Shown in pieces: positions 49,654-58,158 of a stretch of 64,000 nucleotides of DNA. Position 1 is the first letter of the stretch; each line of letters opens with the position of its first letter. The position numbers were made by a program, and so were the translations under genes. This DNA comes from Christiangramia sp. GTDB taxonomy: Bacteria; Bacteroidota; Bacteroidia; Flavobacteriales; Flavobacteriaceae. The stretch covers positions 9,275-73,274 of the forward strand of contig NZ_JAPYPC010000001.1 of assembly GCF_029937855.1 (NCBI RefSeq). The letters run 5' to 3'. A model generated the notes under the pieces. It was not told the origin of the DNA and searched no databases. It saw nothing but the letters and a program-made list of their open reading frames with translations.

Positions 49654-51240
49654 TTACCCCTTGGAAAGTTTGAGTTTCATACCCGGTTTCAGACTATTTG
49701 TGTTCATATCATTCCATGACCTCAAATTTTGTACCGTAACTCCCGGGAATTTTTTTGAAATACTCCAAAGCGAATCTCCATTCTTAACAGTATAAATTCT
49801 GGGATTAGAACTTTTATCTGAATCGCCTGATGTGTTGTTCGAGGCAACTTCAACAGGTTTACGGGGGTAAATCGTGAGATATTGGCCAATTCTAAGGGTA
49901 TTACCCCTCATATTGTTCCAGCGCTTGATACTGCTTATTCCCACGCCATATTTTTCCGCAATTTTACCTAAATAATCTCCACTTCTCACTTTATACCGAA
50001 TTCGATCTTCCGTTTCCACATATTTTGGAAGTGCTTTCTTTTCCTCCACCATCTGATTTTCTATAAAATCATAGATCGCACTTTCGTTAGAAACAAATTT
50101 CCCGGTAGCCGGTTTTGGAAGTCTTACACTATACTGCTCATCCTCTACAAAAGGAATAATATCCAGTTTATAGCTAGGATTTAAAAATTGCAACATCTCC
50201 TTTTCCACTCCGGTAACTTTGGAAATTTGATCAAAAGATAAAAGCTGTTTTACCTTAATAGTATCAGTTTCAAAATAAACAACATCTGGCTTTGAAGGTT
50301 GAAAATTATGCTCATCTGCATATTCGAATAAATAAAGAGTTGCTAGAAAAGCAGGAACATAACCCGCTGTTTCACGTGGAAGAAATCTTCTTAAATGCCA
50401 GTAATCTGTAGAACCACCGCTTCTTCTAATCGCTTTGGAAACATTGCCGGGGCCGGAGTTATAAGATGCCAATACTAGATCCCAATCCCCAAACACCTTG
50501 TAAAGACTGGCTAAATACTGTGCAGCAGCTTCCGTAGCCCTTTCAGGGTCCATACGTTCGTCTACATAAGAGCTTACGTCCAAACCATGCATTTTACCTG
50601 TTGTAAACATAAACTGCCAAAGACCGGTTGCCCCTACCCTGGATTTAGCCCTGGGATTAAGGGCAGATTCAACAATCGCCAGGTACTTAATTTCTAAAGG
50701 AATATCATATTTATCAAGTTCCTGTTCAAACATTGGAAAATAATAGCTACTTAGAGCCATTAAACGTTCCATACCTTGCTTATTTCTTTTTAGATAGGAC
50801 TTGATAACGCTTTCTAAGATAGGATTGTACTCCACATTAAAGGGAGTCCTCGCATTGAGCTTGGCTAGCCGTGCCTTAAGCGTATCTGTAGGAAGATCTT
50901 TATAAACTACTTCTTCATAATCTTGCTCTCTGATACTTTTCTGCATATTTTCAAAAAGCTCTGAATTTGTTAATTCAAGCTTCCAGAGGGAATCTATGGT
51001 TTTAGCCTGGGGAAGGTCTTCTAATTTAACTTTTGAAGAATCCCTAATTGCTGCAGAAATCGGTAATTTATCCCTGAATTCAGGATCTGGCTCTGCAAGT
51101 TTGATCTCTGTATCATCGCTCTTTTGAAATATCTGAACTCTAAAATTGGCTTTTTCCACCCGTTCCTTGTTCTTCTTTTCCTGGGCCAGGCTAGACATCC
51201 CGGCGAGGAGCAACAACAATAAAAATCTTCGTTTCAGCAT
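49654..51240 (-). CDS. MltD-like lytic transglycosylase with two LysM domains
   Basis: A 528-aa exported enzyme that cleaves peptidoglycan glycan strands to 1,6-anhydro ends. A signal peptide covers residues 1-19. The SLT domain (about 175-320) has catalytic Glu191 in IVESALNPRAKS, GATGLWQFM, and the RETAGYVP block. Two LysM modules follow at about 408-452 and 484-527 (SGDYLGKIAEKYGVGISSI; NGDSLWSISKKFPGVTVQNL). It follows pgk by 49 bp. A parS-like sequence lies in the codons of PRET. Confidence 0.93.
   Translation of the reverse strand: MLKRRFLLLLLLAGMSSLAQEKKNKERVEKANFRVQIFQKSDDTEIKLAEPDPEFRDKLPISAAIRDSSKVKLEDLPQAKTIDSLWKLELTNSELFENMQKSIREQDYEEVVYKDLPTDTLKARLAKLNARTPFNVEYNPILESVIKSYLKRNKQGMERLMALSSYYFPMFEQELDKYDIPLEIKYLAIVESALNPRAKSRVGATGLWQFMFTTGKMHGLDVSSYVDERMDPERATEAAAQYLASLYKVFGDWDLVLASYNSGPGNVSKAIRRSGGSTDYWHLRRFLPRETAGYVPAFLATLYLFEYADEHNFQPSKPDVVYFETDTIKVKQLLSFDQISKVTGVEKEMLQFLNPSYKLDIIPFVEDEQYSVRLPKPATGKFVSNESAIYDFIENQMVEEKKALPKYVETEDRIRYKVRSGDYLGKIAEKYGVGISSIKRWNNMRGNTLRIGQYLTIYPRKPVEVASNNTSGDSDKSSNPRIYTVKNGDSLWSISKKFPGVTVQNLRSWNDMNTNSLKPGMKLKLSKG
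50369..50384. other. parS-like site with one mismatch, inside the transglycosylase gene
   Basis: TGTTTCACGTGGAAGA matches the parS consensus TGTTNCACGTGNAACA at all but one position. It encodes the conserved Pro-Arg-Glu-Thr of the SLT domain, so a chance match from codon use is quite possible. It is 5.4 kb from the nearest clear parS. Confidence 0.3.
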
Positions 51241-54937: not shown

Positions 54938-55801
54938 TTAAGCTCCTTTTCTGAAGAAATAAGCTATAGATGAATACTCTCCAGATTGCTTAGCCTTAAT
55001 ATTTGAAATAAAACCTCTATAAAACGCATTTAATAAATTTGAGATTTTGGAATCGCTATTTTCACTCAAAAGACTTACATAATAAGAATCAAACTTGAGA
55101 GGTTTTTCTTTCACTAAATTAAAGCCATATTCTACGAGTTTGCTTTCCAGTCCTGTCCTCGAAAAATGCCAAAGATGTCGGGGCACGTCCCAGGCTGCCC
55201 AATTTTTATTGTAATGATGGGCATCGTAAGAATTATAATTAGGAACGGCTATTATCAATAAGCCGTCTTCTTTTAATAATTTATGGAAACGTACTAATTT
55301 TTTCTCAAAATCTGGAATATGCTCCAGCACATGCCAAAGACTTATTACATCATATTGATCACTTCCCAAATCTGATAAATCAGGTTTAAGATTCAGCCCT
55401 TTTAAAACAGCAAGTTTACGAGCATCATTATTAGGTTCAATTCCTTCAACTTTCCAATCTAAACTTTTCATCTTGTTTAGAAAGTCTCCAGTGCCGGCTC
55501 CATAATCTAAAATTTTTCCTTGTCTTTTAAAATTTTGTATCCAGCCTGCTTTTTTTGAAAGCATATAGGATTTTACAAGCTGATATATTTTTTCCCTGAA
55601 ATTTTTCTTTGAATCACTATGAGAAATATAATCTTCGCTCTCATAATACCGCGATAAATTTTCCGGCACCGGCTCTGTCTTAAAAATCCCTTTTTCGAAT
55701 TCTGAGATTTCAAAACTTTCGCCACTTACCAAATAATCTTTGCAGATTAACTTTGATTCAGGCTGCAACCCGGAATTATATTTATTCTCTATTTTGATCA
55801 A
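54938..55801 (-). CDS. Class I SAM-dependent methyltransferase
   Basis: A 287-aa methyltransferase. SAM-binding motif I is ILDYGAGTGDFL (about 94-105); an acidic residue follows at VEGIEPNN, and DVISLWHVLEHIPD is the motif IV region. This is a methyltransferase 11/23-type fold of the sort often acting on sugars or small molecules. It lies 34 bp after mnmG, with a parS palindrome in between. Substrate unknown. Confidence 0.87.
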   Translation of the reverse strand: MIKIENKYNSGLQPESKLICKDYLVSGESFEISEFEKGIFKTEPVPENLSRYYESEDYISHSDSKKNFREKIYQLVKSYMLSKKAGWIQNFKRQGKILDYGAGTGDFLNKMKSLDWKVEGIEPNNDARKLAVLKGLNLKPDLSDLGSDQYDVISLWHVLEHIPDFEKKLVRFHKLLKEDGLLIIAVPNYNSYDAHHYNKNWAAWDVPRHLWHFSRTGLESKLVEYGFNLVKEKPLKFDSYYVSLLSENSDSKISNLLNAFYRGFISNIKAKQSGEYSSIAYFFRKGA

Positions 55802-55812
55802 TGAATATAATT

Positions 55813-55828
55813 TGTTCCACGTGGAACG
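55813..55828. other. parS centromere site 1
   Basis: TGTTCCACGTGGAACG has the perfect 14-bp palindrome GTTCCACGTGGAAC (55814-55827), matching the conserved parS core bound by chromosomal ParB. It lies in the 34-bp gap between mnmG and the methyltransferase gene, free of coding constraint. Confidence 0.85.
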
Positions 55829-55835
55829 TTTAAAC

Positions 55836-57707
55836 TTATCTTCCCATATAAACCAATAAAACGGAAATATCGTTAGGACTCACACCACTAATTCTTGAAG
55901 CCTGAGAAACGGTTGCGGGCTGGACTTTTTTAAGTTTCTCCCGAGCTTCGTAAGACATAGATTTAATATTGGAATAATCAAAGTTCTGTGGGATCTTAAG
56001 ATCTTCCAATCGGTTCAGCTTATCAGCATTGTTTTTTTCCTTTTGAATATACCCTGAATATTTTACCTGAATTTCTGTTTGCTCGATCATCTCTTCATCC
56101 AGATCATTTTCCGAAATAAATTCTTCTACCCCGCTAAAATTTTTCACATCTTCCATGGTGATCTGTGGGCGTGAAAAAACTTTAAAAGCCTTATCGCTTT
56201 GTTTCATCAGGGATGATTTTCTCTGTTCTAAAACAGGGTTTGCTTCTTCCGGTACCACACTAAGATCTTTCAGAAACTGAACGAATTTAAAAGACTTTTC
56301 TTTCTTCTCTTCCATTTTTCTCATACGATCTTCAGAAGCCAATCCTAATCTATAAGATTTTTCAGTTAACCTGAAATCCGCATTATCCTGCCTTAATAAA
56401 GTTCGATATTCCGCACGGGAAGTAAACATTCTATAAGGCTCCTCGGTTCCCTTAGTGATAAGATCGTCAATTAAAACACCAATGTAAGCTTCGTTTCGCT
56501 TTAGGATAAATTCATCCTTCTCCTGCACTTTTAAAGCCGCATTTATACCCGCCATCATTCCCTGGCAAGCAGCTTCTTCGTATCCGGTTGTTCCATTGAT
56601 CTGACCTGCAAAATATAAACCTTCTACAAGTTTTGTCTCTAATGTATGCTTTAATTGCGTTGGCGGAAAGTAGTCATACTCGATCGCATATCCCGGTCTG
56701 AAAAATTTCACGTTTTCAAAACCAGCTACAGAGCGTAAAGCCTTAAACTGAACATCTTCAGGCAGGGAAGTAGAGAATCCGTTTACATATACCTCCACAG
56801 TGTTCCAGCCTTCTGGCTCTACAAAAAGCTGATGCCTGTCTTTATCTGCAAAACGATTAATTTTATCTTCTATGGAAGGGCAATATCTCGGGCCAATACT
56901 TTTAATTCTCCCATTAAACATTGGAGATCTGTCAAAACCTTCTTTCAAAATCTCATGTACCTCATTAGAAGTGTAAGTCATGTGACAGGAACGTTGTTTG
57001 GCAAGCGGTTTTGTTTCATCTGAATATGAAAATTTTCCTGGAATATCATCGCCAGGTTGCTCAACCATTTTAGAATAATCCAAAGATCTTCCATCAACTC
57101 TTGGTGGAGTGCCTGTTTTCATTCTACCTGCTTCAAAACCGACATCTATTAGATCTTTGGTAATTCCAGTTGCTGCCCTCTCTCCTGCTCTACCTCCTCC
57201 AAATTGTTTATCCCCAATATGTATCAATCCATTTAAAAAAGTACCATTGGTACATACTACAGATTTGGAGAATATCTCCAGTCCAAGAGAAGTTCTAACC
57301 CCAATAACCTTATCATTTTTTATAATTAAACCAGCCACCATTTCCTGATAAAAATCGAGATTAGGTGTCTGTTCCAATTTAATTCTCCAATCCTCAGCAA
57401 ACCTCATGCGGTCACTTTGAACACGAGGACTCCACATTGCAGGCCCTTTAGATTTATTAAGCATTTTAAACTGAATAGCACTAGTGTCACTAACAATTCC
57501 ACTATAACCACCCATAGCGTCGATTTCACGTACTATCTGCCCTTTTGCTATTCCGCCCATTGCCGGATTACAGCTCATTTGAGCAATATTTTGGAGGTTC
57601 ATGGTAATAAGAAGCGTTTTACTACCCATATTAGCTGCCGCTGCCGCTGCTTCACTTCCAGCATGCCCAGCTCCAACTACAATAACATCATATTCCTTTT
57701 CGAACAT
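55836..57707 (-). CDS. mnmG: tRNA uridine-5-carboxymethylaminomethyl synthase MnmG (GidA)
   Basis: A 623-aa FAD enzyme that, with MnmE, makes cmnm5U34 in several tRNAs using glycine and methylene-tetrahydrofolate. The dinucleotide motif VVGAGHAGSEAAAAAANMG is at about 10-28, and both GidA signatures (GPRYCPSIEDKINRF and GQINGTTGYEEAA) are present. Length is normal. It is flanked on both sides by parS palindromes. In many bacteria mnmG lies near the replication origin and parAB. Confidence 0.97.
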   Translation of the reverse strand: MFEKEYDVIVVGAGHAGSEAAAAAANMGSKTLLITMNLQNIAQMSCNPAMGGIAKGQIVREIDAMGGYSGIVSDTSAIQFKMLNKSKGPAMWSPRVQSDRMRFAEDWRIKLEQTPNLDFYQEMVAGLIIKNDKVIGVRTSLGLEIFSKSVVCTNGTFLNGLIHIGDKQFGGGRAGERAATGITKDLIDVGFEAGRMKTGTPPRVDGRSLDYSKMVEQPGDDIPGKFSYSDETKPLAKQRSCHMTYTSNEVHEILKEGFDRSPMFNGRIKSIGPRYCPSIEDKINRFADKDRHQLFVEPEGWNTVEVYVNGFSTSLPEDVQFKALRSVAGFENVKFFRPGYAIEYDYFPPTQLKHTLETKLVEGLYFAGQINGTTGYEEAACQGMMAGINAALKVQEKDEFILKRNEAYIGVLIDDLITKGTEEPYRMFTSRAEYRTLLRQDNADFRLTEKSYRLGLASEDRMRKMEEKKEKSFKFVQFLKDLSVVPEEANPVLEQRKSSLMKQSDKAFKVFSRPQITMEDVKNFSGVEEFISENDLDEEMIEQTEIQVKYSGYIQKEKNNADKLNRLEDLKIPQNFDYSNIKSMSYEAREKLKKVQPATVSQASRISGVSPNDISVLLVYMGR

Positions 57708-57726
57708 ATAGAAATCGTCTTTTTAT

Positions 57727-58158
57727 CTATTGTTCCACGTGGAACAATTTGATCTTCTCTTCTTCCTTGCGTCGCATTAAATCATTCTCCCTTTCAGTTT
57801 TATCTTTATAACCACAAAAATGAAGGATCCCATGTGCTAAAACTCGTTTTAATTCTTCGATAAATTCAGTATTAAAATTCTCTGCATTTTCTTCCACCCT
57901 CTCGGTACTTATAAAAATATCACCCTGCAGGGTATTTCCTAAACTGGAATCAAAACTTATAATATCTGTATAGGTATCATGAGAGAGATATTTAAGGTTT
58001 ATTTCATGAAGATAATCATCATCGCAAAAAATAATATTAATATTTCCTGTATGTTTGTCCTCCGATTTAATAACGGAATCCAGCCAGTTCTTATACACGT
58101 TTTCTTCAGTAAGCGAAAAGTTGTTTTCGCAGAAAAAATTAATCTCTCCCTTTTCCAA
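57727..58158 (-). CDS. ybeY: rRNA maturation endoribonuclease YbeY
   Basis: A 143-aa metal-dependent RNase for 16S rRNA 3'-end maturation and ribosome quality control. The zinc motif HGILHFCGYKDKT has the first two His, with Asp-Lys at the position of the usual third His (GYDH), a variant I believe common in Bacteroidota. The last codons (LFHVEQ) are written by a parS palindrome. It overlaps the DUF4175 gene by 20 bp and precedes mnmG by 19 bp. Confidence 0.92.
   Translation of the reverse strand: MEKGEINFFCENNFSLTEENVYKNWLDSVIKSEDKHTGNINIIFCDDDYLHEINLKYLSHDTYTDIISFDSSLGNTLQGDIFISTERVEENAENFNTEFIEELKRVLAHGILHFCGYKDKTERENDLMRRKEEEKIKLFHVEQ
57731..57746. other. parS centromere site 2
   Basis: TGTTCCACGTGGAACA is a perfect 16-bp palindrome identical to the parS consensus TGTTNCACGTGNAACA. 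It lies over the final sense codons of ybeY, 24 bp upstream of the mnmG start and 1.9 kb from site 1. Confidence 0.92.

Follow-up and report, generated by a model that had tools for sequence, protein, structure and literature searches.

Two predicted parS sites bracket mnmG and lie in the likely replication origin region of Christiangramia and other Flavobacteriaceae

Results

A pair of palindromes on either side of mnmG

The window analysed here is a stretch of 64,000 nucleotides from a Christiangramia sp. contig. Its minus strand carries, in this order, genes for a DUF4175 protein, ybeY, mnmG, a methyltransferase and an OmpH-like protein, flanked on the right by gltX, which is on the plus strand, and on the left by a holB-like gene and pgk. 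Within the 64-kb window, a search for tRNAs found none. Exact matches to GTTNCACGTGNAAC occur at 55814-55827 and 57732-57745, one on each side of mnmG. The features of the locus are:

50369..50382, plus strand: possible degenerate third site, GTTTCACGTGGAAG, with one mismatch, inside an MltD-like transglycosylase gene; uncertain member
54938..55801, minus strand: methyltransferase-domain gene (PF13489), downstream of site 1
55813..55828, no strand assigned: predicted parS site 1, TGTTCCACGTGGAACG, in a 34-bp gap 3' of the mnmG stop codon
55836..57707, minus strand: mnmG (gidA), between both sites (TIGR00136, 853.3 bits against a cut-off of 524.85)
57727..58158, minus strand: ybeY, rRNA maturation RNase (TIGR00043 and translation), whose 3' end (FHVEQ-stop) holds site 2
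57731..57746, no strand assigned: predicted parS site 2, TGTTCCACGTGGAACA, a perfect palindrome within the last ybeY codons, upstream of the mnmG start

An earlier note on this DNA had reported two 16-mers at 55813 and 57731 that fit the ParB-binding consensus, one of them in a 34-bp intergenic gap. Both are present at these coordinates. The gap (55802-55835) runs from the mnmG stop to the TTG that the ORF caller chose as start of the methyltransferase gene and holds site 1; site 2 is not intergenic and lies within ybeY, whose ORF closes at 57727 with KLFHVEQ-stop. The parS consensus is the 16-bp palindrome TGTTNCACGTGNAACA, with which site 2 agrees at all positions and from which site 1 departs at the last outer base only, so that the proposed fit is borne out for both. 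The two sites match parS and presumably not the Noc site.

Exactly two matches to GTTNCACGTGNAAC occur in the window, whereas none of 100 dinucleotide shuffles contained two or more (shuffle mean 0.00). The whole assembly (3,906,436 bases in 80 contigs, completeness 99.89) contains only these two matches, 1.9 kb apart, and the reversed control pattern has none in the same 3,906,436 bases. Few copies in a single cluster, here two in 3.9 Mb, are what is expected of parS, and this genome-wide count contrasts with the many evenly scattered copies that the earlier note had named as speaking against its proposal. Its estimate of one chance occurrence in hundreds of megabases holds when every position of the 14-mer is specified; if two positions of the consensus are left free, our own arithmetic at ~37% GC gives about one in 26 Mb, or 0.15 in the genome. 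The one-mismatch match at 50369-50382 could be a weak third site or reflect coding conservation. A one-mismatch match lies at +5.46 to +5.55 kb in all five Christiangramia/Gramella loci listed, and Gillisia lutea (L017) has an exact site at +5.6 kb.

Conservation beside mnmG in the family

We scanned 299 genomes of the Flavobacteriaceae, an even draw from a larger group, and found a site in 293. By hand count, exactly two sites occur in 244 genomes, another number of at least one in 49, and none in six; the control pattern has at least one match in 26 of the 299 (also by hand count). For the arrangement itself we turned to the best 80 of 559 confirmed mnmG matches (81-96% identity), which are, by virtue of this selection, near relatives. 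Exact sites flank mnmG on both sides in each of these 80 loci, with exactly one site per side and none elsewhere in the fetched flanks in 69. The distance from site to site varies between 1901 and 2379 bp (median 1919), and GTTCCACGTGGAAC accounts for 144 of the 177 flanking sites. The closest fetched relatives of the locus belong to Christiangramia/Gramella. In a set of eight family loci, mnmG lies within 1.5 kb of a site in all eight.

Some lineages depart from the simple pair. There are two or three sites upstream of mnmG in seven Aquimarina loci, and in Aquimarina loci L026, L027, L028, L031, L033 and L068 the downstream site is shifted to +339 or +479 bp. In g128, a genus of the same family, parS copies have expanded, with as many as ten exact sites in a genome.

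None of the six family genomes without a site (completeness 76-99%) gives an mnmG match. Missing contigs can explain the absence of both sites and mnmG in the less complete of these genomes. G123, a single 2.7-Mb contig rated 99% complete, has neither an exact parS nor an mnmG match, and ParB is present; the site and the gene may have been lost together, or the region may be masked or fall in a gap.

Conservation beyond the family and genomes without exact sites

A sample of the phylum yielded a site in 363 of 395 genomes. Six other families of the class (f4, f5, f8, f9, f11 and f12) contributed 30 loci, 23 of which have mnmG within 1.5 kb of a site, the seven misses being all five loci of f5 and both of f9. 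These seven (L165-L169, L178 and L179) have exact sites with other neighbours, and no mnmG match falls in the 1.5 kb on either side of the first listed site. Likewise, of 30 genomes picked for having a site, one from each of 30 other families, 23 have mnmG no more than 1.5 kb from the first site. Given that both counts cover the flanks of the first listed site only, the misses are upper bounds. In f4 and f8, several loci have two to five closely spaced sites next to mnmG.

We also examined 25 genomes without an exact site, comprising all six from the family scan and 19 of the 32 from the phylum sample. The idea that genomes lacking ParB also lack the sites fails as a test, since ParB is present in 24 of the 25; exact sites are therefore not strictly required. 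A full mnmG match was obtained in 18 of the 25, and 14 of these 18 have a one-mismatch site just outside mnmG, which base shuffles reproduce in 0-4 of 200 cases per locus.

The motif persists outside coding sequence

Given that site 2 encodes the C-terminus of YbeY, FHVEQ, the match might reflect protein coding or, at the RNA level, a hairpin or terminator, rather than DNA binding. The upstream site nearest mnmG does fall inside ybeY, always in the same frame, in 21 of the best 80 loci, and in eight more (L026, L027, L028, L031, L033, L068, L069 and L083) ybeY ends with FHVEH or FHVEQ at a second upstream site. These eight are among the 59 loci in which the nearest upstream site lies past the ORF end and is still exact (at least one of the 59, L065, was scored against an ORF that is not ybeY), so the motif is kept even in places where it does not code for protein. 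The downstream site lies outside mnmG in all 80 loci. A perfect palindrome without a loop would form a poor hairpin, and only two copies exist in the genome. Together, these data render a coding or RNA origin of the match exceedingly improbable.

The sites adjoin the ends of genes that form a short cluster, and some transcription factors recognise sites with a CACGTG core, which would be compatible with operators of a transcription factor controlling ybeY, mnmG and the methyltransferase gene instead of centromeres. We consider this highly improbable, as the match covers the full ParB consensus, with only two copies in this genome, the position of one site 3' of mnmG in 80 of the best 80 loci would be odd for an operator, and the groups of two to five sites in f4 and f8 also argue against it.

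ParA, ParB and dnaA lie elsewhere in the genome

The genome encodes one protein with a ParB_N domain (PF02195, E 2.7e-33), on contig C34. Its translation carries SGERRFRAS, which includes the N-terminal CTPase motif GERR, together with a helix-turn-helix, aligns to solved ParB/Spo0J chains over residues 40-241 and passes TIGR00180 (168.9 bits against 58.45). Assignment to a Noc system was rejected: the protein reaches 245.5, short of the Noc cut-off of 315, though this is its highest bit score among the models listed. Directly before parB lies a ParA ORF with KGGVGKTT, a deviant Walker A motif (L226:10853-11614), all of whose NCBIfam matches to ParA-type models fall below cut-off. The gene for DnaA is found on contig C9. 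The earlier note was thus right that parA, parB and dnaA are absent from the window, and the genome contains the ParB homologue whose lack it had named as a counter-argument. Proximity of parAB to parS, which is usual and not strictly defining, is not seen here, the two being on different contigs.

In five relatives (G143, G254, G154, G059 and G205), dnaA is separated from parS by 31-47% of the chromosome, and the gene for the 300-aa type of ParB by 1.0-1.4 Mb (29-36%). The distance between parB and parS is similar among the five genomes, and G254 has a second, longer ParB_N protein. For comparison, we used nine genomes of other families in one or two contigs (G300, G437, G326, G301, G303, G339, G556, G671 and G678), leaving out G525 (six contigs) because its dnaA sits on another contig. 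In four of the nine (G300, G437, G326 and G301), dnaA is 16-58 kb from the nearest site, and in the other five 0.6-1.4 Mb; ParB is encoded ~0.3 Mb or more from parS in all nine. In G437, another DnaA match also exceeds the cut-off. Since mnmG is not beside the first site in G326 and G301, where dnaA is near, or in G671, the link to mnmG and the link to the origin do not always occur together.

GC skew places the origin near the sites in four of five relatives

Within the window, raw GC skew mainly follows gene direction, and we therefore compared third-codon-position GC skew on the two sides of parS. Twenty 20-kb stretches were sampled from each of the five relatives, whose site-bearing contig is approximately the whole genome. 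The skew rises across parS with one-sided p values of 0.0004 (G143), 0.001 (G154), 0.006 (G059), 0.011 (G205) and 0.09 (G254); Fisher combination gives 6e-8 with samples taken as independent, which is only roughly true. The corresponding values for raw GC skew are 0.006 (G143), 0.09 (G254), 0.014 (G154), 0.013 (G059) and 0.001 (G205). Gene strand alone did not separate the arms in any of four genomes (p 0.17-0.66).

We then fitted origins with a terminus 30-70% round the chromosome, at least four samples per arm and a right arm of higher skew. In G143, parS falls within the range of the best-fit origin; the best fit is 20-60 kb from parS in G059 and ~50-160 kb from it in G154 and G205. G254 shows no clear skew change at parS, and its best fit is ~0.4-0.5 Mb off. 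Hence, in four of the five relatives the sites lie in the replication-origin region, with the skew origin within ~160 kb and dnaA and parAB far off, which agrees with the proximity to oriC that the earlier note had proposed. For the genome under study, the assembly of 80 contigs confines the analysis to a skew change at contig level. In 10-kb bins over the first 110 kb of the 244.6-kb contig, skew is positive at 0-10 kb, negative at 10-90 kb and positive at 90-110 kb, with parS at 65-67 kb; this is weak evidence because gene direction changes there too.

The sites might be parS while the origin of the family is located elsewhere, for example at dnaA, leaving the centromere far from oriC. The distance of dnaA from parS in the five relatives is compatible with this arrangement, as is the fit in G254, which is slightly better for an origin at dnaA than at parS (0.107 versus 0.110; best 0.078). 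DnaA boxes point in the same direction: no group of at least four TTWTNCACA motifs within 600 bp was found around the sites in the five genomes, 98 stretches contained a single group of three within 600 bp, ~80 kb from parS in G143, and TTATCCACA at one mismatch reaches a best count of three per 500 bp, in eight of the 80 loci. No DnaA-box cluster that would mark oriC directly was thus found beside the sites in the stretches and loci scanned. On the other hand, parS is a better-fitting origin than dnaA in G154 and G059, no fit at dnaA satisfies the set conditions in G143 and G205, and dnaA itself lies close to a site in the four other-family genomes described above. The available text of two studies puts oriC beside mnmG (PMC11278836; PMC12843772), and that of a third describes oriC as commonly far from dnaA in Bacteroidetes (PMC4755523). 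We therefore regard an origin away from the sites as very unlikely.

Discussion

Both palindromes are, with high probability, parS sites: predicted loading sites of ParB that form a chromosomal centromere in the oriC region, away from dnaA and parAB. Given that relatives keep the same arrangement, this would be a standard centromere in an unusually fixed place. A review describes one or several parS sites, commonly near the origin (PMC7333895, available text), and the sites reported here share with such chromosomal ParABS systems the palindromic consensus, the few clustered copies, a predicted origin region, and genes for ParA and ParB. They differ in flanking one gene, mnmG, across the family.

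By analogy with the known ParABS mechanism, ParB, encoded elsewhere in the genome, would clamp onto both sites, and CTP-bound ParB would slide outward over mnmG and its neighbours, building the partition complex. ParA would then move this complex, allowing two new origins to separate, and SMC is probably loaded at the sites. In model ParABS species, parAB is found near the origin, whereas in the five family genomes parB is 29-36% of the chromosome away from parS. In kind, this is an ordinary chromosomal centromere; what is distinctive is that the sites bracket mnmG in an almost fixed arrangement and lie apart from dnaA and parAB.

From the comparison with other families, we infer that parS kept its place in the origin region, usually next to mnmG, and that parAB relocated, as did dnaA in many lineages. 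In many other phyla, mnmG (gidA), rsmG and parAB occur together near oriC, so that the link to mnmG may be a remnant of this cluster.

We found no report of a parS pair flanking mnmG in the literature searched, mainly titles and the beginnings of abstracts. Livny et al. 2007, outside the scope of this search, is reportedly a likely earlier survey of parS and may contain such a pair.

The origin itself has been placed near mnmG in the same family before. In Mariniflexile litorale, dnaA is out of line with GC skew, and the oriC predicted by Ori-Finder adjoins mnmG (PMC11278836, available text; oriC and ter are labelled in its Figure 3 legend in reverse of its text). For 'Algorimicrobium', the available text gives mnmG as the origin, based on Ori-Finder and GC skew (PMC12843772). 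An origin near mnmG was thus already known for the group, with the same landmark gene as here and, in M. litorale, the same disagreement between GC skew and dnaA. These two studies do not name parS in their available main text, where the sole match to 'pars' is 'parsimony'. The origin of Prevotella intermedia is likewise apart from dnaA, and 'parS' does not occur in the available text of that study (PMC4755523).

The parS pair together with mnmG provides a simple landmark by which to recognise the origin region of Flavobacteriaceae, and perhaps that of much of Bacteroidota. Three of the five sampled genomes have records that begin at dnaA, 31-47% of the chromosome away from the region of the likely origin, which matters for estimates of replication rate from read depth and for genome maps. 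The constant position also raises the question of why the centromere stayed with one tRNA-modification gene when dnaA and parAB are elsewhere. One tentative and rather unlikely answer is that the two sites are selected as a pair, with near-fixed spacing around mnmG throughout the family and a place beside it in many other families of the phylum, whereas dnaA and parAB moved away: mnmG would be coated by sliding ParB, and either its expression would be tied to the partition complex or its transcription would shape ParB spreading. If so, mnmG would be a resident of the centromere.
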